Below are positions 33,440 through 57,570 of a stretch of DNA of 64,000 nt, piece after piece. Below the pieces are notes generated by a model that worked only from the letters and a program-made list of their open reading frames with translations, did no database searches and was not told the DNA's origin. Source of the DNA: Polaromonas sp. (GTDB lineage Bacteria > Pseudomonadota > Gammaproteobacteria > Burkholderiales > Burkholderiaceae_C). Position numbers and translations under genes: made by a program. How positions within the stretch are numbered: position 1 is the first letter of the stretch; each line of letters begins with the position of its first letter. The DNA is taken from the NCBI RefSeq assembly GCF_029945925.1, contig NZ_JAQSDN010000049.1:33679-97678 (forward strand). Direction: 5' to 3'.

Positions 33440-33606
33440 CTAGTACTGCAGCACGGAAGTAGCGAAACAAAATGAAAGTGATGACTTCGTGCCCAGGGCA
33501 AGGCGCAAGCCGCAGCGAAGGCTGTGCGCCTTCGCAAGGATTGCAACGCCGCCATGGGTGCGAAGGCGCGCTTTCATGTTTCGATATTTTCGGGTTGCAG
33601 TACTAG
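33440..33606. mobile_element. MITE-like element with ~37-bp imperfect terminal inverted repeats
   Basis: Left CTAGTACTGCAGCACGGAAGTAGCGAAACAAAATGAAAG; complement of right CTAGTACTGCAACCCGAAAATATCGAAACATGAAAG; no conserved coding potential. Confidence 0.8.
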
Positions 33607-34046
33607 GGCTTGGGTGTCTGGGCGCGGCGCCGCGGCTGCCACGCCATCATGCTGGCGACAATCTCTCCCCAGGGCAACTCCAGCAGGCTCGCATCGTTGC
33701 GCTTGGCCTTTTGCACCATGGCATGGACGTCAGCCGTGGGCGCCGCCACCGCGGCCTGCAAGCCGCGCAGGCCGCCGCATTGCAGCTGCATGGCTTTGGC
33801 GTGGACCAGGGGAACACCCGGGCGGGGCAGGCGCAGCGCGAACGTAGCCCGCTCACGGAACAGGCTTTCCAGCGTCGTGCAGTTGATACGGGCCACTTCA
33901 AGCGAGCAGGCGACGACTTCGCGCTCGGCCAGCGCGTGCCGGCTGGCCAGTTCGCACTGGGCACAGCCCGCCAGAAGGGCCCTCTCGAACACACAGGGTG
34001 AGAGGTTGAGGGTCCGGCGTGACGCGTGATACGCAGGCTCATCCAC
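33603..34046 (-). CDS. conserved-looking hypothetical protein of the Cas6-like operon
   Basis: ORF up to 34121; GTG at 34046 avoids overlap with the upstream gene. SPCVFERALLAGCAQCELASRHALAEREVVACS...INCTTLESLFRERATF...MQLQCGGLRGLQ; stop codon is supplied by the MITE end. Confidence 0.6.
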   Translation of the reverse strand: MDEPAYHASRRTLNLSPCVFERALLAGCAQCELASRHALAEREVVACSLEVARINCTTLESLFRERATFALRLPRPGVPLVHAKAMQLQCGGLRGLQAAVAAPTADVHAMVQKAKRNDASLLELPWGEIVASMMAWQPRRRAQTPKP

Positions 34047-34056
34047 GGTGAGGATC

Positions 34057-34275
34057 TCAGTCGTCGCCCCTGGGTCCCGGCGTGCGAACCTGGCACAACA
34101 GGTCTTCGGCCTGCAGCTCATTGTCTGCGAACATGATTTTTATTTTTCCCGGCGAGTCGACCGTCTGTTCGGCACGCAGTCGCTTGGCATGGATGGACGC
34201 TTGCTGGAAGGTTCCGGACTCGGACAGTTTTTCCAGCTGCGCGAAGGGTTTGATCAGGTAGATGTAGTAGGGCAT
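34057..34275 (-). CDS. small hypothetical protein (72 aa)
   Basis: MPYYIYLIKPFAQLEKLSESGTFQQASIHAKRLRAEQTVDSPGKIKIMFADNELQAEDLLCQVR; same strand, tight operon spacing. Confidence 0.7.
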   Translation of the reverse strand: MPYYIYLIKPFAQLEKLSESGTFQQASIHAKRLRAEQTVDSPGKIKIMFADNELQAEDLLCQVRTPGPRGDD

Positions 34276-34306
34276 GGGTCGGATTCAATCTGTCGGGGTG
34301 ACGACT

Positions 34307-34696
34307 TCAGATGTAGTGTTTGGAAGCGCGCCGGCGCCCCGGCAGGGCCTTCTGGATAATGACGCCGCGCACGGCGCTCAGGTCCGGCAGCGGCGCATCG
34401 GCGAAAGCCGGGTTCAGCGGGTGCAGCACCCAGCCGGTACCAGCGCGCAGCAGTTGCCTGAAGGTCCAGGCTTGCTGGTGCCAGGCCAGCACATAGGAGC
34501 CGTCCCGGGCCATTCCGTCGGGCTCGATGATGATGATCTCGCCCTCGTTGAACTCGGGTGCCATGCTGTGGCCCAGCACCATCAGCGCAAAGGACTCGCC
34601 GCCCGCGCAGTCGGGCACCAGGGTATCGGCCGCTGGGGAAGTCGCATCGGCATAGGTGCTCCCATGCGATGTTGAGGAATCCGGGCCTGGCAGCAT
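34307..34696 (-). CDS. S24/LexA-type peptidase-fold protein without HTH domain
   Basis: ALMVLGHSMAPEFNEGEIIIIEPDG...DGSYVLAWHQQAWTFRQLLRAGTGWVLHPLNPAF. Confidence 0.75.
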   Translation of the reverse strand: MLPGPDSSTSHGSTYADATSPAADTLVPDCAGGESFALMVLGHSMAPEFNEGEIIIIEPDGMARDGSYVLAWHQQAWTFRQLLRAGTGWVLHPLNPAFADAPLPDLSAVRGVIIQKALPGRRRASKHYI

Positions 34697-34723
34697 GTGA
34701 AAACTCGGTAAATAGGTGTCGAC

Positions 34724-36199
34724 TCACAGCACCTGGGTGACTATTTGGGCCGCTGCGACGCCTGCCGCGCGCAGTTCATCATGCAGTGTGCTGACAAAGC
34801 CAGCGGGCCCGGCCAGATAGAAATCACAGTCAATGTCAAACAGGTCGGCCCGCATGGCTTGGGCGATCTGCCGGGCGCCGACTGCAACATCTGCATGTGA
34901 CACCAACTCAAATTCAAACTGGTCCAGCGCCTCGGACCAGGCGCGGCACTGGTTGCTGAAGAAATGCCCATCGCTGCCCGTGGCCAGCCAGAACAGCGAG
35001 AGCGAAGGCGCCGCATCCAGCGACAGCGCATGCTCGATCAGGCTTTTGATGGGCGCGAAGCCGCCATCGCAGGCGGCGAATACCAGCGGACGGTGTCCAT
35101 CGGCCAATACGAACTCACCCGTTGGCCCCAACACCCTGACGGCGGCGCCGGGCTGGATATCACCCGCAAACAGGTGCCGCGCCAGAGCGTCGGACTCATC
35201 GCGGGAAATGAAAAAGAGCAGATTCCGGTCGTCACAGGGACAACTGGCTATCGGGTGGGTGGCATGCGCATCGCCTTGCCCTGGCATCGTCCACCCCAGC
35301 GACACCGACTGGCCGGCCAGGAAGCGCAGCCTGTGCGTACGCGGCGTCTGCAGATGCAGCAGCCGCGTATCGGGCGCCTGTGCAGTCACGGCTCTCACTT
35401 GCGCCACGATGTGCTGTTCAGGGATATCCAGCGGCCCGCTGGCCTCCAGCAGCTCCAGCGTGAGCTCGCTGCTGGCGGCGGTGTTGCAGCACATCAGGGT
35501 GTAGCCCTGGGTTTTTTCTGCTTCCGACAGGGCGTAGTCAAAGTGCTGGGTTTTCACAACCTCGCCGGAAATCACGCGCACCTTGCACATGCCGCAACTG
35601 CCATTGCCGCAGCCGTAGTTGAGTTTGAGCCCGGCCTGCAGCCCCGACTGCAACAGGGTGGCACGCCCCTCCACCGAGAATTCGTGCCCACTGGGGCGCA
35701 CCGTCACCTGTGCCGACATCACTTTGAGCATATCGTCCATCACCTCCAGCAAATCGACTGATTCGGTGGCCAACGCCTGCGCCAGGCCCTGGGTAACCTG
35801 TTGTTCCAGCGCCTGCCAGGTGGCATCGCCAGGACGCTTTGCGGCCAGTTCCCGAATGCGCTGTTGCAGCGCGATCACCAGGCCGTGGTAACGCTGCAGG
35901 TGCTTGCGCACGTCGGCCAGTTCCTGGCTTTGCGCAAACAGCCGCTGCGCCAGCACTTCCTGGCTGGGCAACATGCGCTCGCGCACGCGCCTGCCGAATG
36001 CTTCGTCCCGGATTTGCGCCACGCGCTCCAGCAAACCGGATTCCTCAAGCTTGGCGCCGGGGTACAGGCGCAGCAAGGCATCGGTGGACACCAGTCCGTC
36101 ACTCAGGACCAGCGTGCCGTCGCGCACCTGTTGCTGCAGCACCCCGCGCGCCACGCCCACCAACTGGGCGGCACGCCATACGCTGACCTGATGTGACAT
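34724..36199 (-). CDS. HTH-like/coiled-coil N-terminus + 2Fe-2S ferredoxin + FNR-type reductase fusion
   Basis: N-term SVWRAAQLVGVARGVLQQQVRDGTL; ferredoxin LNYGCGNGSCGMCKVRVISGEVV...TLMCCNTA; NAD-binding C-term RVLGPTGEFVL, FYLAGPAGFVSTLHDEL. Confidence 0.8.
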   Translation of the reverse strand: MSHQVSVWRAAQLVGVARGVLQQQVRDGTLVLSDGLVSTDALLRLYPGAKLEESGLLERVAQIRDEAFGRRVRERMLPSQEVLAQRLFAQSQELADVRKHLQRYHGLVIALQQRIRELAAKRPGDATWQALEQQVTQGLAQALATESVDLLEVMDDMLKVMSAQVTVRPSGHEFSVEGRATLLQSGLQAGLKLNYGCGNGSCGMCKVRVISGEVVKTQHFDYALSEAEKTQGYTLMCCNTAASSELTLELLEASGPLDIPEQHIVAQVRAVTAQAPDTRLLHLQTPRTHRLRFLAGQSVSLGWTMPGQGDAHATHPIASCPCDDRNLLFFISRDESDALARHLFAGDIQPGAAVRVLGPTGEFVLADGHRPLVFAACDGGFAPIKSLIEHALSLDAAPSLSLFWLATGSDGHFFSNQCRAWSEALDQFEFELVSHADVAVGARQIAQAMRADLFDIDCDFYLAGPAGFVSTLHDELRAAGVAAAQIVTQVL

Positions 36200-36219
36200 G
36201 GTGCTCTTCCGCTATTGTT

Positions 36220-37185
36220 TTAGTAGCTTCTTGCGCCCTGTTTAAAAGGGTCGAAAGCTGATTTGCCAAATGAAACCGGTGCAGTGGCGCCGGCCCTGGC
36301 TGGCCCGGGCGAACGGATGCGATCGAGATACCGGGCACGGTACAGCAGCCGGGGGTGCTCGGGATCGTCCGCAAAGCCGGCGCGGTCGTGCAACACGTTG
36401 TTACACACCAGCCCCATGCCGGGCTCGAGTCGCACACGAATCCGGTGCGGCCCGTCAGACCCCAGCAACTGCTCCAGGAAAGCGACCGCCGCGCGCGTTG
36501 GCGCATCGTCCTTCCACTGCACACTGCGAGTGCGTGCCGTGTAGCGCATGTGCAGCGCGCCGCTGGATTCATCTACCGAGAACACCGGCCCGGACTGCTC
36601 GGCGCGCGCCACACCGTCTTCATCAAGCCGCTCGGGAATGGTCATGGCGTCGGGCGCCATGAGCGCGCGCACCCAGTCCGGGTTGGCTTCGCGCACAGCG
36701 ATGTAGGCCATCTCGTGGTCCATCAGGGCGTTCTCGCCGCCTGCGGCGGCCGCCCGCACACAATGCAGAATCATCGCCCGGATGTGCCGGGACTGCGGGT
36801 GATAGTAGCCATCGGTATGCCACTTGATCGGCCGGTTGGTATAGGGAATGAACGCGGTGCGATCACCCACCTTCGTCGCCACCTCGATCTGCGAAATACC
36901 GTCTTCGTCGGCCAGCCAGTTGCCGTCCAGACGGTGCAGCCCTAACTGCTGCGCCAGTTGGCGAGGAATAGCCTTGTCCGGGCCATACACCGGGCTGCGG
37001 TAGATCGCCATATTGGCCGTGGCACAGCGTTGCAGCAGCGCTTGCCGTTCGGCATCACTGAGGCTGCGGGGGTCGGTCACGTCAACCACCAGGTCCTGCG
37101 CGCGGGGCGGATGGCTGGCGCGCTTGGCGTCACGCCAGCGCTGGTAGGCGGCTGGGGCTTCAAGGTCGAACGGCGTGTTCATCAT
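36220..37185 (-). CDS. TauD/TfdA-family Fe(II)/2-oxoglutarate dioxygenase-like protein
   Basis: IKWHTDGYYHPQSRHIRAMILHCV (HxD), LVCNNVLHDRAGF, RLLYRARYLDRI; start MMNTPFDLEAP. Confidence 0.8.
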   Translation of the reverse strand: MMNTPFDLEAPAAYQRWRDAKRASHPPRAQDLVVDVTDPRSLSDAERQALLQRCATANMAIYRSPVYGPDKAIPRQLAQQLGLHRLDGNWLADEDGISQIEVATKVGDRTAFIPYTNRPIKWHTDGYYHPQSRHIRAMILHCVRAAAAGGENALMDHEMAYIAVREANPDWVRALMAPDAMTIPERLDEDGVARAEQSGPVFSVDESSGALHMRYTARTRSVQWKDDAPTRAAVAFLEQLLGSDGPHRIRVRLEPGMGLVCNNVLHDRAGFADDPEHPRLLYRARYLDRIRSPGPARAGATAPVSFGKSAFDPFKQGARSY

Positions 37186-37195
37186 GGCACTGTGC

Positions 37196-37813
37196 TCAGT
37201 CGCCGGATGTGGCGGTGCGGGCGGCGCGCGGCGCGCGCGCTTCGGTGGACAGCACGTCCTGCATGGCGCGCTGCAGCATTTCCACGGCCTCGGGTACTTC
37301 GGTGGCCATGATCTGATCAACCACCCAGCGCTGGTCCTTTTGCGGCATGAGCGCCTCGATGCGATGCCCGAGGTAGCGAACGAAGGCAAAGTCCGGCCCG
37401 TCGGGGCCAAAGCCAAACTCGGCGTAGTGGTCTGCCAGCTCGTTGAACAGGTCAATGAATTCGTCATAGTGACTGGGCTGGCCCGCAGGTGGTTCGCCCA
37501 GCAGGTTGTCCTCGTTCTCCTGCAACACCTCGGCCAGACGCCTTACCAATGCATGGATGAACTCGCCACGCTCCTCAGAGCCCATGCGCTCAAACGCCAT
37601 GCGGTCCAGCACATGGGCCAGAAATACCAGCACCTCACGCGTGAAGGCAAAGTACTGCGGCCCGATGTCGATGTCAAAGTGGGCCGAGCGCATCTGCTTG
37701 AGCATGTTCTGCGTCACGCGCCAGACGATGAAGGCCATCGCACTGGCGGTTTGCTGCGGGGTCTTGGCGGTTCCTGAGCGGAACCACTGGCTCTTGATTC
37801 TGATGTTGGCCAT
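37196..37813 (-). CDS. conserved-looking hypothetical protein (205 aa, helical)
   Basis: MANIRIKSQWFRSGTAKTPQQTASAMAFIVWRVTQNMLKQMRSAHFDIDIGPQYFAFTREVLVFLAHVLDRMAF; operonic. Confidence 0.7.
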   Translation of the reverse strand: MANIRIKSQWFRSGTAKTPQQTASAMAFIVWRVTQNMLKQMRSAHFDIDIGPQYFAFTREVLVFLAHVLDRMAFERMGSEERGEFIHALVRRLAEVLQENEDNLLGEPPAGQPSHYDEFIDLFNELADHYAEFGFGPDGPDFAFVRYLGHRIEALMPQKDQRWVVDQIMATEVPEAVEMLQRAMQDVLSTEARAPRAARTATSGD

Positions 37814-37850
37814 ATCAAACCAGCGAACGTGGGGGCCATGTCAAGCCACC

Positions 37851-38034
37851 ACACGCAGTGGCAAGCGTGGGGGCGAGCTTCTCCGCCGGGCCGCCCCAAG
37901 GAGAAGCAGCCCCCTCGGGGGGCAGCGCAGCACACGCAGTGGCAAGCGTGGGGGCGAGCTTCTCCGCCGGGCCGCCCCCAGGAGAAGCAGCCCCCTCGGG
38001 GGGCAGCGCAGCACACGCAGTGGCAAGCGTGGGG
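37851..38034. repeat. 81-bp direct tandem repeat (two full units plus partial third)
   Basis: ACACGCAGTGGCAAGCGTGGGGGC begins at 37851, 37932 and 38013; each unit contains GGCCGCCCC...AGCCCCCTCGGGGGGC. Confidence 0.9.
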
Positions 38035-38042
38035 GCCATATC

Positions 38043-38372
38043 TCAATAGCCACCCTTGCCCAAGGGCTGCGGCAAGGCCGCTACCTTGGGACCTTGCTTG
38101 GCGGGCCCTGTCGGAAACAGATCGTAGAGATACTTGCTGTCCACTTCAGGGCGTATGTCGGCCATGCCCTTGAGCATGGCACGGAAATTCGGCGTGTGGC
38201 CGTTTTCGCGGTACTGGTCGCGCAGGTAGTTGATAACTTCCCAGTGCGCATCGGTCAACTCGATGTGTTCGGCCGAGGCGATGACGCGCACCGCCTCATC
38301 GTCAAATACCGGCTCAAGCAGGTAGCCCTGATCGTCGGTCTCGTGCTCCACGCCATGGATGTTGTAGCTCAT
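38043..38372 (-). CDS. DsrC/TusE-family paralogue lacking cysteines
   Basis: DDQGYLLEPVFDDEAVRVIASAEHIELTDAHWEVINYLRDQYRENGHTPNFRAMLKGMADIRPEVDSKYLYDLFPTGPAKQGPKVAALPQPLGKGGY. Confidence 0.9.
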   Translation of the reverse strand: MSYNIHGVEHETDDQGYLLEPVFDDEAVRVIASAEHIELTDAHWEVINYLRDQYRENGHTPNFRAMLKGMADIRPEVDSKYLYDLFPTGPAKQGPKVAALPQPLGKGGY

Positions 38373-38409
38373 TTTTACGTCTCCGTTTCTTCAGTTGCCC
38401 AGGAAACCC

Positions 38410-39024
38410 CTACACCGCCGCCGCTGACCTGTGCGGCACAAATATCCCGCAACCCAGCAGCCGGTGCGGCCCCAGGCCATGCTGCTGCAGACGCAGCGAT
38501 TGTTCCGGCGGCAGTGCGTGCAGCATCAGGCTGAAGGTGTCCAGTACACGGCCTGACGCCAGCACGCGTTGGCGCTTGCCGCATACCCGCTCGCCGCCAA
38601 TGGCCAACTCGGCCAGTTCCCGATCCACCGCCGCCATGAACGTCATTTCGTCCGCGCTGCCTGCCGCCACCCTGTACGCATACAGGGTGGAGTGGGGCAG
38701 CAGCTCGCGCAGGTGCGGTCGCCCCAAGCGCAGGAGATGGGCACCCACAGTCAGGTCAAGCCCTGCCAGCGCCAGCAGTTCGTCCGCGCGCTCCGCCCCC
38801 ACCCGCAGCAACAAGCACGTTCGCCGGGACAGCAGGGCATGTTCGTCGCTGCCCTGCACCACCTTGATGGGATGTATGCCTGCCACAGGATCTGTGTCCA
38901 GCCAGGGTAACTGCGCACACAGGCCCTGTTGCAGCGCCTGTGCATGGTCGCGCGGCAATATCTGCCCCTGGATGGGAAACGCAGCGTCCACCGCCGCCTT
39001 GTCCGGTGCTTGCGGGGGGCTCAT
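38410..39024 (-). CDS. Cas6/Cmx6-like protein (no CRISPR array or other cas genes in the window)
   Basis: FPIQGQILPRDHAQALQQGLCAQLPWL...GIHPIKVV...RRTCLLLRVG...LYAYRV...C-terminal RLQQHGLGPHRLLGCGIFVPHRS (Cas6-type Gly-rich loop). Confidence 0.65.
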   Translation of the reverse strand: MSPPQAPDKAAVDAAFPIQGQILPRDHAQALQQGLCAQLPWLDTDPVAGIHPIKVVQGSDEHALLSRRTCLLLRVGAERADELLALAGLDLTVGAHLLRLGRPHLRELLPHSTLYAYRVAAGSADEMTFMAAVDRELAELAIGGERVCGKRQRVLASGRVLDTFSLMLHALPPEQSLRLQQHGLGPHRLLGCGIFVPHRSAAAV

Positions 39025-39260
39025 TCCGGCTCCTGGGTTGGGGGCACCGTCTGGGGCTGCGTCTGCGCCCAGCGCAGCAAGGCCTCGCCCCAAAGGCGCG
39101 CCGTCTGAGGGTCGATTTCAAACACCGTGAAACGGCTTTTCTCGCGTATACGCGTACGTAGCAGACTCATGCCGCCCGCGTCATAGTCCAGCTGCTGCAA
39201 TTCGATGACCTGCCCGCCGAGCGGACTGATCAGCTTTTCAAGCGGAGTAACGGTCGTCAT
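39021..39260 (-). CDS. small hypothetical protein (79 aa), first gene of the Cas6-like operon
   Basis: MTTVTPLEKLISPLGGQVIELQQLDYDAGGMSLLRTRIREKSRFTVFEIDPQTARLWGEALLRWA; ATGA overlap with the next gene; 111 nt downstream of the shared promoter element. Confidence 0.65.
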   Translation of the reverse strand: MTTVTPLEKLISPLGGQVIELQQLDYDAGGMSLLRTRIREKSRFTVFEIDPQTARLWGEALLRWAQTQPQTVPPTQEPE

Positions 39261-39371: not shown

Positions 39372-39419
39372 GTGCCGTCTATAACCGGCACGGGTGGGGG
39401 CATATAGCTCTAATGGGTA
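39372..39419 (-). promoter_or_regulatory. Conserved ~48-bp promoter-like element, copy driving the Cas6-like minus-strand operon
   Basis: Minus strand TACCCATTAGAGCTATATGCCCCCACCCGTGCCGGTTATAGACGGCAC. Confidence 0.7.
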
Positions 39420-39577: not shown

Positions 39578-40858
39578 ATGAGCAAGAAACCGCACGACAC
39601 CCCCATGCTTGACCAGTTGGAGGCCGGTCCGTGGCCCAGCTTTGTCACCGGTCTGAAGCGTCTGGCCAAAGAGAGCGACTATATGACCGACCTGATGGGT
39701 CAGCTGGAGCACTCCTACAAAACCCGCAAGGGCTACTGGAAGGGCGGAACGGTGGGGGTGTTTGGCTACGGCGGCGGCGTGATTCCGCGCTTCTCCGAAG
39801 TCGCTGAGATGTTCCCGGCCTCCAGGGAATTCCACACCCTGCGGGTACAGCCACCGGCGGGCATGCACTACAACACCGATGTGTTGCGCAAGATGTGTGA
39901 CATCTGGGAGCGTCACGGTTCTGGCCTGATCGCCTTTCACGGTCAGTCCGGTGACATCATGTTCCAGGGTGCCAGCACGGCGAACGTGCAGGGTGCATTC
40001 GATGAGCTGAATGAACTGGGCTTTGACCTCGGTGGTGCCGGCCCGGCGGTGCGTACCTCCATGTCCTGCGTCGGTGCGGCGCGCTGCGAGCAGTCCTGCT
40101 TTGACGAAGCGCGGGCGCATCGCCAGGTGGTCAACACCTTCCTGGATGACATGCACCGCCCGGCGCTGCCGTACAAGTTCAAGTTCAAGTTTTCGGGATG
40201 CCCGAATGACTGCATGAATTCCATCCAGCGTGCGGATATGGCGGTCATTGGCACCTGGCGCGACAACATGCGTACCGACGAACCCCTTGCCCGCAAATGG
40301 TTCGCCAAACACGGCATGACCGAACTGGTGAACGATGTGGTCAGCCGTTGCCCGACCAAGGCCATCATGCTCAAGGAGACCAAGGACGTCTCCAAGGGGC
40401 CAAAGATTTCCAGCGTCGCCCTGAACGACACGCAGTCGCTGGAAATCGACAACGCCAACTGCGTGCGCTGCATGCATTGCATCAACGTCATGACCGGTGC
40501 CTTGGCCACGGGTACGGACAAGGGTGTGACGGTGCTGATGGGGGGCAAGCGCACGCTCAAGATCGGTGACCTGATGGGCACCGTGGTGACGCCCTTCATG
40601 CCGATGAAGACCGATGAGGATTACCAGGCTCTGGTGGAACTGGCCCAGAAGTCTATCGACTTCTTTGCCGAGAACGCACTGGAACACGAGCGTACCGGCG
40701 AGATGATCGAGCGCATCGGCCTGGTCAACTTCCTGGAAGGTATCGGTCTGGAGATCGATCCCAACATGGTTTCCACGCCGCGCACCAACCCCTATGTCCG
40801 CACCGACGGCTGGGACGACGAGGTGGCCAAGATCAATGCCCGCAAGGCGGCGGCCTGA
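39578..40858 (+). CDS. dsrA: reverse dissimilatory sulfite reductase alpha subunit
   Basis: SGCPNDCMNSIQRADMAVIGTWRD, CVGAARCEQSCFDEARA, ferredoxin domain CVRCMHCINVM; ATG at 39578. Confidence 0.96.
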   Translation: MSKKPHDTPMLDQLEAGPWPSFVTGLKRLAKESDYMTDLMGQLEHSYKTRKGYWKGGTVGVFGYGGGVIPRFSEVAEMFPASREFHTLRVQPPAGMHYNTDVLRKMCDIWERHGSGLIAFHGQSGDIMFQGASTANVQGAFDELNELGFDLGGAGPAVRTSMSCVGAARCEQSCFDEARAHRQVVNTFLDDMHRPALPYKFKFKFSGCPNDCMNSIQRADMAVIGTWRDNMRTDEPLARKWFAKHGMTELVNDVVSRCPTKAIMLKETKDVSKGPKISSVALNDTQSLEIDNANCVRCMHCINVMTGALATGTDKGVTVLMGGKRTLKIGDLMGTVVTPFMPMKTDEDYQALVELAQKSIDFFAENALEHERTGEMIERIGLVNFLEGIGLEIDPNMVSTPRTNPYVRTDGWDDEVAKINARKAAA

Positions 40859-50297: not shown

Positions 50298-52046
50298 ATG
50301 TCACGCTTTCTGGTTTCGGCTGCGCACAAATCTTCGGGCAAGACAACCATCACGGTGGGCCTGTGCGCCGCCTTGTCGACCAAAGGCCTGGCCGTGCAGC
50401 CTTTCAAAAAAGGGCCGGACTACATCGACCCCCTGTGGCTGAGTCAGGCCAGCGGACGCGACTGCTTTAACCTCGACCCCTACCTGATGACGCCTGAGCA
50501 GATCACCACCTGCTTCACCCGCCACGCTGCGCAGGCTGATATCAGCATCGTGGAAGGCAACAAAGGTTTGTACGATGGCCTGGCACTGGACGGCAGCAAC
50601 AGCAACGCCGCACTGGCGCAGTTGCTGGACCTGCCCGTGCTGCTGGTGCTGGACGCCCGCGGCATGACACGCGGCATCGCGCCGCTGATTCTGGGCTACC
50701 AGGCATTTGATCCGCGCATCCGCATTGCCGGTGTCATCCTCAACCAGTTGGGCGGTGCCCGTCACGAATCCAAGCTGCGTGCGGTGATTGAACATTACAC
50801 CGATGTGCCGGTGCTGGGCGCCATCGCGCACGATCCGCGTCTGGCGGTGGTGGAGCGCCATCTTGGACTGATGCCCAGCCATGAACTCGATGACGCCGCG
50901 CAGCGCGTGCGCGCCATGGCTGAACTGATTGCCGCGCAGCTTGATTTGCCTCGGGTGTTGCAGCTTGCCGCGAGTGTCGCACCATTGCCGCCGACACCAT
51001 CGGCGCAACCGGCAGTGCAGGCGGCGACACCGCAGCCACGCGTTCGCATCGGTCTGGCGCGCGACAAGGCCTTTGGCTTTTACTACCCGGACGACCTGAT
51101 CGCCCTGGAAGCGGCCGGGGCCGAGATTGTGCCCTTCAATACTTTGCAGGACGCTTGCCTGCCTGAAGTGGATGGTCTGTTTATCGGCGGCGGTTTCCCG
51201 GAAATGTTCATGCCGCAGTTGCAGGCTAATGCCCCCATGCGCCAAAGCATACGCTCCGCCATTGAAGGGGGGATGCCCGTCTATGCCGAATGTGGCGGTC
51301 TCATGTATCTCGCACGCACACTTCGATGGCACGACGATGTTTACCAGATGGTGGGCGCACTTCCTGCGGATGTGCTGGTGCACGAGCGCCCCGTGGGTCG
51401 CGGCTATATGGAACTGCAGACGACGGCCGATGCGCCTTGGTCTGCCCGCGCGGGCGCCGCGCCGCAAACCCTGCGCGGGCACGAGTTCCACTACTCCAGC
51501 CTGGAAAACCTGGCGCCGGACCTGAAATTCGCCTATCGCGTGATGCGCGGGCATGGCGTGGATGGCCAGCGCGACGGCATCGTCTACCGAAACGTGCTCG
51601 CCTCCTACGCCCACCTGCGCAGCGGGGCGGGCACGGAATGGGCGCCGCAGTTTGTCGCCTTTGTACGCACGCTCAGCATCGCGTCGAAGCCGCAGGTCAG
51701 CGCGGTCGCGCGCAGCGTGCTGGTCCATGGCCAACCCGTTGCTACCGACTCTGAAGGCTATTTGAAAAACCTGGATGATTGGTCTGAGGACTTTGCACGG
51801 ATACAGGCGAAGGCGGAAAACCTGGCGCTGACCGATGAACATTGGCAAGTGATCCTTTTTTTGCGGGCGTACTTCGAGGAGCACAGGGTGCAGGCGCAGG
51901 TACGCGCGATGATTTGGCACTTTGCCAAAGTTTGGGGGACTGAACATGGCAACAACCATTACCTTCACACGCTTTTTCCGGTTGGTGGACCGCAAAAGCA
52001 AGGCAACCGTTTGGCCGGTCTGTTGAAGACCAAGGGTGAACATTGA
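50298..52046 (+). CDS. dsrN: DsrN (cobyrinate a,c-diamide synthase-like, CbiA) fused to a C-terminal Cys-less DsrC/TusE domain
   Basis: CbiA: VSAAHKSSGKTTITVGLCAALSTKGLAVQPFKKGPDYIDPLWL, GLFIGGGFPEMF, YAECGGLMYL; from ~aa 470 DsrC-like VATDSEGYLKNLDDWSEDFARIQAKAENLALTDEHWQVILFLRAYFEEHRVQAQVRAMIWHFAKVWGTEHGNNHYLHTLFPVGGPQKQG. Confidence 0.92.
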   Translation: MSRFLVSAAHKSSGKTTITVGLCAALSTKGLAVQPFKKGPDYIDPLWLSQASGRDCFNLDPYLMTPEQITTCFTRHAAQADISIVEGNKGLYDGLALDGSNSNAALAQLLDLPVLLVLDARGMTRGIAPLILGYQAFDPRIRIAGVILNQLGGARHESKLRAVIEHYTDVPVLGAIAHDPRLAVVERHLGLMPSHELDDAAQRVRAMAELIAAQLDLPRVLQLAASVAPLPPTPSAQPAVQAATPQPRVRIGLARDKAFGFYYPDDLIALEAAGAEIVPFNTLQDACLPEVDGLFIGGGFPEMFMPQLQANAPMRQSIRSAIEGGMPVYAECGGLMYLARTLRWHDDVYQMVGALPADVLVHERPVGRGYMELQTTADAPWSARAGAAPQTLRGHEFHYSSLENLAPDLKFAYRVMRGHGVDGQRDGIVYRNVLASYAHLRSGAGTEWAPQFVAFVRTLSIASKPQVSAVARSVLVHGQPVATDSEGYLKNLDDWSEDFARIQAKAENLALTDEHWQVILFLRAYFEEHRVQAQVRAMIWHFAKVWGTEHGNNHYLHTLFPVGGPQKQGNRLAGLLKTKGEH

Positions 52047-55523: not shown

Positions 55524-56222
55524 TCAGCCTTTGGCTTTTTGACTGGCCTCACCCGCCGCCTTGACCCCGTCCGGCGAGCTGTGGTACTCAAACGCAAACA
55601 CCGCCGCTTCGACCCGCGAGCGCAGATTGAGCTTGTCCATGATGTGGCGCACGTGCAGTTTGACCGTGTTGTGGCTGATATCCAGCGCTTTGGCAATAAC
55701 CTTGTTGCTCTGGCCGCGTGCGACGTGGTCGAGCACCTCGCGCTCGCGCTCGGTAAGCGAGGCCACCAGGGCGCCCTTGACCGATCCCTTGGGACCGGAT
55801 TGCAGTATTTGCGCGAGTTTCAGCGTCATGGCCGAGGCCACAACCATCTCGCCGCGTGCGGCCCTTGCGATGGCGTTGATGATCTCCTCTGGCTCCATGT
55901 CCTTGAGCAGGTAGCCTCGCACACCGGCGCGCAGTGCGGCGGACATGTCGTCTTCGCTGTCACTCATGGTCAGTATGACAACCGGGGTTTCACAACCCTC
56001 TGCGCGAATCAGGCGCAACAGACTCAAGCCGTCGGTCTTGGCCAGACGCAAGTCCAGCACCATCAGGTCGGGTTGTTGCTCCCGTAGCATAGGCGCCACC
56101 TGCGCAGGGTCGCCCGTGGACCCCACCACCACCATGTCACCTCGGTGTTCCAGCAGCTCGGACAGGCCGTTACGGCACAGCGTGTGATCGTCCACCAGCA
56201 TCACCCGGGTCTTGGCCGTCAT
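55524..56222 (-). CDS. NarL/FixJ-family response regulator
   Basis: VMLVDDHTLCRNGLSELL, PDLMVLDLRL; LuxR-type LTEREREVLDHVARGQSNKVIAKALDISHNTVKLHVRHIMDKLNLRSRVEAAVFA. Confidence 0.92.
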   Translation of the reverse strand: MTAKTRVMLVDDHTLCRNGLSELLEHRGDMVVVGSTGDPAQVAPMLREQQPDLMVLDLRLAKTDGLSLLRLIRAEGCETPVVILTMSDSEDDMSAALRAGVRGYLLKDMEPEEIINAIARAARGEMVVASAMTLKLAQILQSGPKGSVKGALVASLTEREREVLDHVARGQSNKVIAKALDISHNTVKLHVRHIMDKLNLRSRVEAAVFAFEYHSSPDGVKAAGEASQKAKG

Positions 56223-57427
56223 GTAGCGTGCTCCCCAGTGGCAGGATTGGCAGGGAGTACCAGGCGTACCCGGGTGCCGCCCCCTTCATTCCTGCCGACC
56301 TCCAGACTTCCGCCCAGGCGCTGCGTTCTGCCCTGCATGATTTCCAGTCCGAAATGGGCCGCTGCTGCCGGTTCTGCCATGCTTGCTCCCCCGAATAGCT
56401 CGGCCATGCCCCGTCCATCGTCCTCGATCAGGAACTCGAGCTGTCGGGGCGTTTTGTCAATCGCCAGAACGGCGCGGCTGGCCATCGAATGCTTCGCGAT
56501 ATTGGCCAGCGCTTCCTGAATGATGTGAAACACCTGCGCTTCCTGTTCGTCGGTCAGGTTCAGATTCTGCGCCGAATTCCTGATTTCCAGTGTGATGCCA
56601 GTGCGGTCAAGGAAGCCGTCGGCGATACCATGGAGCGCGTGCAGCAGGCCCAGTGGATCCATGCGGGTGCGAAAGTAGGTCATGACCTCGCGCAAATTGT
56701 CATGCACATCACCCACGGCCTTCTTGACATCCGAAAAGTATTTGAGCGAGCGCTGGTCATCATGAGCCAGCAGGGCATCGTTGAGCAAGGGCAGTCGCAT
56801 TTTGACGTAAGCCAATGTCTGCGCAATGGCGTCATGCACTTCATTAAGCATTTCCTGGCGCTCTTTCATCACCGTCACGCGCAGGCGCTCGCGCTCAATC
56901 CGGGCATTGTGCAGGGCCAGTCCCAACAACTGGCCAATCAGGCGCAATATGGTCTGCGTCTGCGGGTCAATCTGGGCATTGGCTTCAAAAAACAGGTTGT
57001 AAATCCCCAGTACCTGTTTGCCGTGGGGCAGCGATATGGCCAGCACGCTCTTGCATTGCAGTCCGAAATAGGCGTTGCTACCGTGTCGGTCGCAGGATCG
57101 CACGTCGTCCACCCAGACCAAAACGTCGGTACCGGCGGCGATACCGCACATGCCGCAGTCGCGCTCCACCAGCCGTTCGGTGCTCAGCACATGCGGCGGC
57201 AAGCCTTGCTGCGCTACCAGCCGCATATATTGCCCGTCGTCGGTCAGGACGCGCACGGCCCCGGCCTGGGCTCCGGCCAGCGCAACGATGGAAACCAGAA
57301 AGCGCTCCAGTAGCGGCTCCAGATCACTACCTGCAGCAAGTTCCGTCGTCAATTCGGAGACGATAGGATCCCCGTCTGCTGCGGTTGCGGTGGACGCCGG
57401 GGTGAACAGGGTATGGGTCGGATTCAT
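56219..57427 (-). CDS. NarX-type soluble histidine kinase (GAF + HisKA_3 + HATPase) with Cys-rich GAF
   Basis: CGMCGIAAGTDVLVWVDDVRSCDRHGSNAYFGLQCKSV; EMLNEVHDAIAQTLAYVKMRLPLL H-box; FLIEDDGRGM; no TM segment. Confidence 0.88.
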   Translation of the reverse strand: MNPTHTLFTPASTATAADGDPIVSELTTELAAGSDLEPLLERFLVSIVALAGAQAGAVRVLTDDGQYMRLVAQQGLPPHVLSTERLVERDCGMCGIAAGTDVLVWVDDVRSCDRHGSNAYFGLQCKSVLAISLPHGKQVLGIYNLFFEANAQIDPQTQTILRLIGQLLGLALHNARIERERLRVTVMKERQEMLNEVHDAIAQTLAYVKMRLPLLNDALLAHDDQRSLKYFSDVKKAVGDVHDNLREVMTYFRTRMDPLGLLHALHGIADGFLDRTGITLEIRNSAQNLNLTDEQEAQVFHIIQEALANIAKHSMASRAVLAIDKTPRQLEFLIEDDGRGMAELFGGASMAEPAAAAHFGLEIMQGRTQRLGGSLEVGRNEGGGTRVRLVLPANPATGEHAT

Positions 57428-57570
57428 GTTGAGGTAACGAACATGCTAGTTCATTAGTCGGGGCTGATCTATCGTGAAAACCCCCGTGAAACCCCAGGGC
57501 GCCGTGGAATGTCCTGAAAGCGCCAGGTCGGGGCCCGAAATCCGGTTCGGGCAAGGGGTAGCCGCCACGC

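Follow-up and report, generated by a model that had tools for sequence, protein, structure and literature searches.

The 64,000-nucleotide stretch of Polaromonas sp. DNA analyzed here (contig NZ_JAQSDN010000049.1; the window, for short) carries, divergent from dsrA, a nine-gene operon on the minus strand, the genes of which are numbered o1 to o9 from its first gene onwards (Table 1). Judged by sequence comparison, this is a lineage-specific companion operon of reverse Dsr (rDsr) sulfur oxidation in Gammaproteobacteria in the GTDB sense, in which betaproteobacteria are included. We regard it as almost certain that the operon is real and dedicated to dsr. By the same comparisons it is an undescribed, widely conserved companion system of dsr, the mechanism of which is speculative. 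Accessory dsr genes (dsrL, dsrN, dsrR and dsrS) and dsr regulation in Allochromatium vinosum were reportedly treated by Grimm, Dahl and co-workers in 2010. Like those genes, the operon is linked to dsr and sulfur oxidation, but it comprises a different gene set and is transcribed divergently. No prior description of it was found in the open-access literature, and a 2023 Dsr synteny study, which analyzed the named Dsr proteins, contains no mention of Cas6 or TauD according to a text search (PMC10504309).

The link to dsr is seen in the co-occurrence of the genes. Among 274 genomes of Gammaproteobacteria spread over many families, dsrA was found in 94 (fragments counted), the family of o2 (PF09559) in 91 and o4 in 90. 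PF09559 was present in 87 of the 94 dsrA-positive genomes versus 4 of the other 180, and both were missing in 176. PF09559 and o4 occurred together in 87 genomes, and o4 is likewise a phyletic marker of dsrA-positive genomes. Several of the exceptions to the pairing of dsrA with PF09559 are incomplete genomes, and its Fisher value is 2e-57, with relatedness not taken into account. In Burkholderiales, PF09559 was found in 33 of 36 dsrA-positive genomes, nearly always within about 1 kb of dsrA. All 20 Burkholderiales loci that were compared have the order DUF6967-Cas6-RspA-X-o4(-TauD) divergent from dsrA, X being a sulfurtransferase gene (tandem rhodanese or double-TusA) in most of them; TauD was found in 15 of them and DUF6967 was undetected in one. 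The order in other Gammaproteobacteria is dsrBA and, divergently, TauD-c12-Cas6-RspA, followed by 2-oxoglutarate (2OG) oxygenases, DUF6866 and o4. Cas6 has an identical position beside dsrA across dozens of families, and dsrA is divergent within 5 kb in 42 of the 55 contig loci with enough upstream DNA. A preliminary description of the window, made from its letters without database searches, had tied the operon to sulfur oxidation and called for a check of whether the neighborhood of all nine genes is conserved. The tie to sulfur oxidation is supported by the tracking of dsrA. The neighborhood is conserved far outside this strain: one relative (L074) has all nine genes in identical order between dsrA and yeeE/dsrE2, and the core (o1, or c12 in its place, with o2-o5) is widespread, both in the 20 further Burkholderiales loci and in other Gammaproteobacteria, but o6-o9 are absent or located elsewhere in most relatives. 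A typical gammaproteobacterial dsr-Cas6 region also occurs in a record titled 'Halobacteria archaeon' (L127), which is probably a mis-binned contig.

The most conspicuous member of the operon is o2. It scores 148.7 bits against the Cas6 model TIGR02807 (cut-off 98.85), and its relative in the PDB, 8fcj chain B, is a true Cas6 (E-value 3.5e-27). The protein retains His27, which aligns with the catalytic His of Cas6, along with Arg74 and, at the C-terminal end, the Gly-rich loop GxG..R..GCGxF. This His is found in 99% of 102 dsr-linked and in 5/5 CRISPR-linked sequences, and the loop is common to both groups. The protein has a full-length family match to the Cas6 of type I-MYXAN / I-B CRISPR systems (TIGR02807, PF09559) with an identical catalytic His and loop. 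Unlike them, it is linked to dsr and not to cas genes or arrays, and a small DUF6967 or c12 gene lies directly upstream. The dsr-linked sequences form one separate clade with 100% support and differ from the CRISPR-linked ones in having their own invariant residues (W36, H46, G56-W57, R72, E131, K151, G155 and H204-K205 in the numbering of locus L037).

A CRISPR remnant, or a trans-acting Cas6 that came to lie beside dsr by chance, would account for the passing of the TIGR02807 cut-off and for the true CRISPR-linked homologues in cyanobacteria, which are found on plasmids and of which two were examined and found in full cas context. However, the separate clade and the constant position beside dsrA over dozens of families make this explanation extremely improbable. 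Furthermore, no cas gene is among the genes conserved around dsr-linked Cas6, the window contains no repeat-spacer array, and cas1 (PF01867), which is present in 31 of 60 Cas6-positive genomes and hence missing from about half of the carriers, has no match in the host genome. We have therefore rejected it. The Cas6/Cmx6-like protein with an RNA-processing fold of the preliminary description is upheld, as the RNase hallmarks are retained while the CRISPR context is missing, and proteins of the o2 type are likely to act on RNA outside CRISPR. The dsr-linked proteins exceed the NCBIfam cut-off for 'type I-MYXAN CRISPR-associated protein Cas6/Cmx6', and automatic annotation consequently suggests CRISPR where there is none. 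This explains the stray "type I-MYXAN Cas6" labels in genomes of sulfur oxidizers.

The small protein o1 is the positional equivalent of the 63-residue c12, which precedes Cas6 in other Gammaproteobacteria. The equivalence is claimed by position only, as a profile comparison of DUF6967 with c12 gave a probability of 1.5%. A predicted model of c12 with a mean local confidence (pLDDT) of 89.9 and a predicted template modeling score (pTM) of 0.73 has no fold match in the PDB. Beggiatoales-like genomes retain the c12-Cas6 pair without an adjacent dsr, and hence the two proteins probably act together.

The next protein, o3, belongs to the DsrC fold family, lacks both DsrC cysteines and comes from a dsrAB organism, and these are the traits of RspA, which we take to be the name of the Cys-less DsrC branch, although no open-access paper on this name was found. 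It scores 92.6 bits against the DsrC/TusE profile TIGR03342 (cut-off 53.5) and shares with that family the core residues W44, R51, P61, R64 and F86-P87 and the C-terminal arm. Unlike in DsrC/TusE, the arm is longer, Gly stands at both aligned cysteine positions, and the chain ends in an invariant KGGY, which is present in every complete copy (21/21 and 43/43 sequences). The penultimate Cys of DsrC is strictly conserved (PMC3397948), and in organisms with DsrAB a second Cys is expected as well. Without the arm cysteines that characterize DsrC/TusE sulfur carriers, RspA cannot be expected to carry sulfur.

The gap between RspA and o4 is where the relatives differ from the window. In the 20 Burkholderiales loci, it contains a tandem rhodanese (PF00581 x2) in 13 and a double-TusA (PF01206 x2) in 5, and 9 other gammaproteobacterial loci have a rhodanese close to Cas6. 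Sulfurtransferase genes are missing from the operons of the window and L074. The preliminary gene list missed these most informative partners of the relatives, as it did the MoxR/VWA, DUF6866 and 2OG-oxygenase genes found there. In the window, the corresponding position is occupied by a tandem repeat of 81 bp that contains strong inverted repeats. It was considered as a Cas6 target and rejected, since it is not conserved: L074 lacks it and has only about 10 nucleotides between RspA and o4.

The sulfurtransferases raise the question of whether the operon encodes an RNA (probably tRNA) thiolation or hydroxylation system parallel to Tus, in which the rhodanese or double-TusA would be the donor of sulfane sulfur, RspA an adaptor of DsrC/TusE fold, Cas6 the source of RNA specificity and TauD the hydroxylase. 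The Cas6 fold binds RNA, donor genes are found in most Burkholderiales loci, and TusE, a member of the DsrC family, passes sulfur to MnmA for tRNA thiolation (PMC3397948). Nevertheless, we find such a system unlikely: the proposed adaptor has neither cysteine, the window and L074 lack a donor, the genes conserved in the cluster include neither an MnmA-like enzyme nor another known RNA modifier, and such a system would not account for the strictness with which the operon goes with dsrA.

Listed as unknown in the preliminary description, o4 indeed has neither a significant Pfam match nor a fold match in the PDB (best E-value 0.07, TM-score 0.23), and its predicted structure consists of six helices (pLDDT 90.5, pTM 0.85). 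The call of o5 as a TauD-like dioxygenase is equally sound. Its facial triad H123-x-D125...H266 is conserved in at least 92% of 61 sequences, and the predicted 2OG-Fe(II) site, which is of the gamma-butyrobetaine/trimethyllysine-hydroxylase type, is intact. Such a site could serve a metabolic side pathway, in which TauD acts on an organosulfur or trimethylammonium substrate to free sulfite or another compound, with the assistance of the other genes. This is highly improbable because transporters and additional catabolic enzymes are missing from the operon, TauD is less constant than any other core gene (undetected in 5 of the 20 Burkholderiales loci), and Cas6 and RspA would remain without an explanation.

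As o6-o9 are missing from the locus in most relatives, the nine genes are best described as two modules, the o1-o5 set and the o6-o9 set, joined into one operon in the host and in L074. Full-length o6 was found in 52 of 300 Burkholderiales genomes, and all 52 carriers have dsrA. It is often found at another site of the genome, accompanied by MoxR, VWA (DUF2201), S24, o8 and o9. Its Fer2-FAD-NAD domain order is that of BenC/AntC-type ferredoxin-FNR reductases (BenC model, 6e-33). Unlike these, o6 has an additional N-terminal helix-turn-helix (HTH) and a coiled region, scores below all equivalog cut-offs, and in its full-length form was found only in dsrA-positive Burkholderiales of the sample. 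The proposed HTH-like/ferredoxin/FNR fusion is supported by an HTH_17 match in 15 of 19 homologues and by the Fer2 domain; the N-terminus has no significant match in the PDB. The LexA-protease fold proposed for o7 fared less well. The S24 domain is there, and the nucleophile Ser within G(D/H)SMxPEF is kept in 7/7 homologues, as in LexA/UmuD peptidases. Unlike in those, there is no DNA-binding domain (HTH), and in 7/7 homologues Arg replaces the catalytic (general-base) Lys, the position of which we presume from the E. coli LexA motif. With the canonical lysine lost, protease action is doubtful.

In L139, L140 and L144, which are outside Burkholderiales, o9 is close to o4 but encoded on the other strand, and o8 is also found in L139 and L140, so the o8/o9 pair probably predates the host lineage. 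In dsrA-positive genomes (L061, L049, L066 and L076-L079), the vicinity of o4 or o6 repeatedly contains genes for a MoxR ATPase, a DUF2201 VWA protein and a 379-residue protein without a Pfam family. The MoxR-VWA genes beside o4 or o6 in several relatives bring to mind a module for maturation, quality control or repair of rDsrAB or its cofactors (siroheme amide, Fe-S). It would comprise the chaperone-like MoxR/VWA pair, the ferredoxin reductase, the oxygenases and RspA as a DsrC-shaped placeholder in the DsrAB cleft during assembly. The retention in RspA of the DsrC core residues and of an arm comparable in length, and the strict dsrA co-occurrence, agree with this. However, the conserved catalytic His and Gly-loop of Cas6 would have no role, the module is absent from sampled dsrA-positive genomes outside Gammaproteobacteria, and MoxR/VWA genes are found neither in the operon of the window nor beside Burkholderiales Cas6. 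We rate such a function as rather unlikely, too.

The promoter region provides a further connection to sulfur oxidation. The element ACCCNTNNCGGYKATAGACGG upstream of the operon has three matches in the window with 0 mismatches, whereas 0.09 are expected at up to 3 mismatches. As the preliminary description had noted, it is shared: there are exactly two other copies, before dsrE2 (31104) and soeA (57570), and at all three sites (the nine-gene operon, the TusA/dsrE2 genes and soeA) ATAGACGG follows about 21 nucleotides downstream. The L074 genome contains only two exact matches, at dsrA and upstream of dsrE2. In the dsrA/TauD intergenic regions of relatives, a 16-bp palindrome, TATCCC-N4-GGGATA, is found with at most 1 mismatch in 30/49 divergent regions versus 1/490 shuffles. 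In the direction of dsrA, a second block, CACCCC...GGGT, and a -10-like box, TAGAMT, come after it; its Burkholderiales form is CTACCC-N4-GGGKTA, and in relatives a further copy of the palindrome half with a TATAGT box precedes c22. Since the element is common to other sulfur-oxidation operons, it supports their co-regulation with the nine-gene operon, which we consider quite probable. Judging from its N4 spacing and position, the activator that binds it may be of the Crp/Fnr or NarL type. A NarXL-like two-component system (55524-57427, with the NarL-type regulator at 55524-56222), divergent from soeABC, is a candidate regulator for the copy at 57570.

Taken together, the motif retained in Cas6, a DsrC homologue blind to sulfur, the sulfurtransferases found as partners and an HTH protein coupled to redox domains lead us to propose as the most likely reading, tentatively and with the mechanism as a whole held at less than even confidence, that the operon is a sulfur- and redox-responsive, probably RNA-level, control module of rDsr. 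DUF6967 (elsewhere c12) and Cas6 would assemble into a small complex that binds or cleaves cellular RNA, the simplest target of which would be a transcript of the sulfur regulon. RspA might dock as DsrC does on DsrEFH, DsrAB, DsrK or the Cas6 complex and, being unable to accept sulfur, report or block the loading state of the sulfur relay. The HTH-ferredoxin-FNR protein o6 would make transcription depend on the NADH/redox state, with o7, the S24-like pseudoprotease, as its binding partner, and o5 could hydroxylate one of these components, with the KGGY tail of RspA as a candidate. There is also a more far-reaching version, which we consider doubtful. In it, a Cas6 endoribonuclease would have left CRISPR immunity and, together with a tiny partner and RspA, become fixed in nearly all Beta- and Gammaproteobacteria that use Dsr. 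There it would serve sulfur oxidation as a sensor/effector at the RNA level, with RspA reading the sulfur relay and gating the cleavage of regulon RNA. Post-transcriptional control of dsr genes has reportedly been observed in Allochromatium, and we know of no effectors of it.

Several observations weigh against this control module. Searches for an RNA target yielded no Rfam match, no covarying hairpin in the best candidate (the aligned and folded RspA-c22 leader) and no consistent 5' hairpin in the leaders of the three window promoters, of which the soeA leader alone is unusually stable (z -3.7), so the three share no structure. With intergenic folding also yielding none, a conserved RNA hairpin as the Cas6 substrate was rejected. 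The o6-o9 set is inconstant, as described above. PF09559 is absent from sampled dsrA-positive genomes (Pseudomonadota) outside Gammaproteobacteria; rDsr can thus run without the module, which is therefore a lineage-specific companion and not a core requirement. Of the sulfur-responsive regulatory or RNA system envisaged in the preliminary description, the conserved neighborhood, the tracking of dsrA, the shared promoter and the Cas6 hallmarks stand, the protease role of o7 is doubtful, and RNA processing and sulfur responsiveness are inferred.

In sediments, vents, symbioses and wastewater, a large share of sulfur cycling is driven by rDsr sulfur oxidation. An operon without an assigned function lies beside dsrAB in almost every beta- and gammaproteobacterial carrier sampled, and it supplies concrete candidate partners for the control of stored-sulfur oxidation. 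Should its Cas6 prove to act on the RNA of the cell, this would be a case of a CRISPR protein recruited into metabolism and retained in many families.

All nine minus-strand open reading frames of the preliminary description were confirmed, and so was the intergenic region common to the operon and dsrA, which measures 317 nucleotides. The tight spacing holds for the 4-nucleotide ATGA overlap of o1 and o2 and for most other gaps (10-37 nucleotides), but not for the 229 nucleotides between o3 and o4, where the repeat lies. From this spacing, the nine genes are presumably one transcript. The first protein, formerly listed as unknown, matches DUF6967. The last is Cys-rich and without a profile match, as described, but its start was moved to the GTG at 34046 by homology.

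Table 1. Features of the nine-gene operon and its divergent region (window coordinates; aa, amino acids)
Feature	Position	Strand	Remarks
o1, DUF6967 (PF22295), 79 aa	39021-39260	minus	profile match 6e-27; first gene of operon
o2, Cas6 family (PF09559/TIGR02807), 204 aa	38410-39024	minus	PF09559 1e-56
o3, RspA-type DsrC homologue, 109 aa, zero Cys	38043-38372	minus	DsrC profile 7e-30
81-bp tandem repeat, 2.3 copies	37847-38036		o3-o4 gap
o4, 205 aa, all-alpha	37196-37813	minus	no significant Pfam match
o5, TauD/gamma-butyrobetaine-hydroxylase-like 2OG-Fe(II) dioxygenase, 321 aa	36220-37185	minus	TauD 1e-20
o6, N-terminal HTH + coiled region + [2Fe-2S] ferredoxin + FNR-type reductase fusion, 491 aa	34724-36199	minus	Fer2 7e-15 + FNR-type domains
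o7, S24/LexA-C-terminal-like domain, 129 aa	34307-34696	minus	Peptidase_S24 4e-15
o8, conserved 72-aa protein, pattern MPYYIYR...AExELQAEDLL...GDD	34057-34275	minus	no profile match
o9, Cys-rich, ~147 aa, five conserved Cys	33603-34046	minus	no profile match; GTG start by homology
Palindrome CTACCC-N4-GAGCTA, operon promoter	39404-39419	minus
-10-like block ACCC-N4-CGGTTATAGACGG	39375-39395	minus	~21 nt past palindrome; common to dsrE2 (31129) and soeA (57595) promoters
dsrA, divergent neighbor outside operon	39578-40858	plus

The plus-strand dsr cluster of the window extends from dsrA (39578) through dsrN (50298-52046), with soeABC from 57733 onwards. In the Burkholderiales relatives L088 and L093, DsrN is 466-473 residues long and has no DsrC-like extension. 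The DsrN of the window carries a C-terminal extension that constitutes a third DsrC-like domain (109 bits), which is devoid of arm cysteines and ends in KTKGEH.

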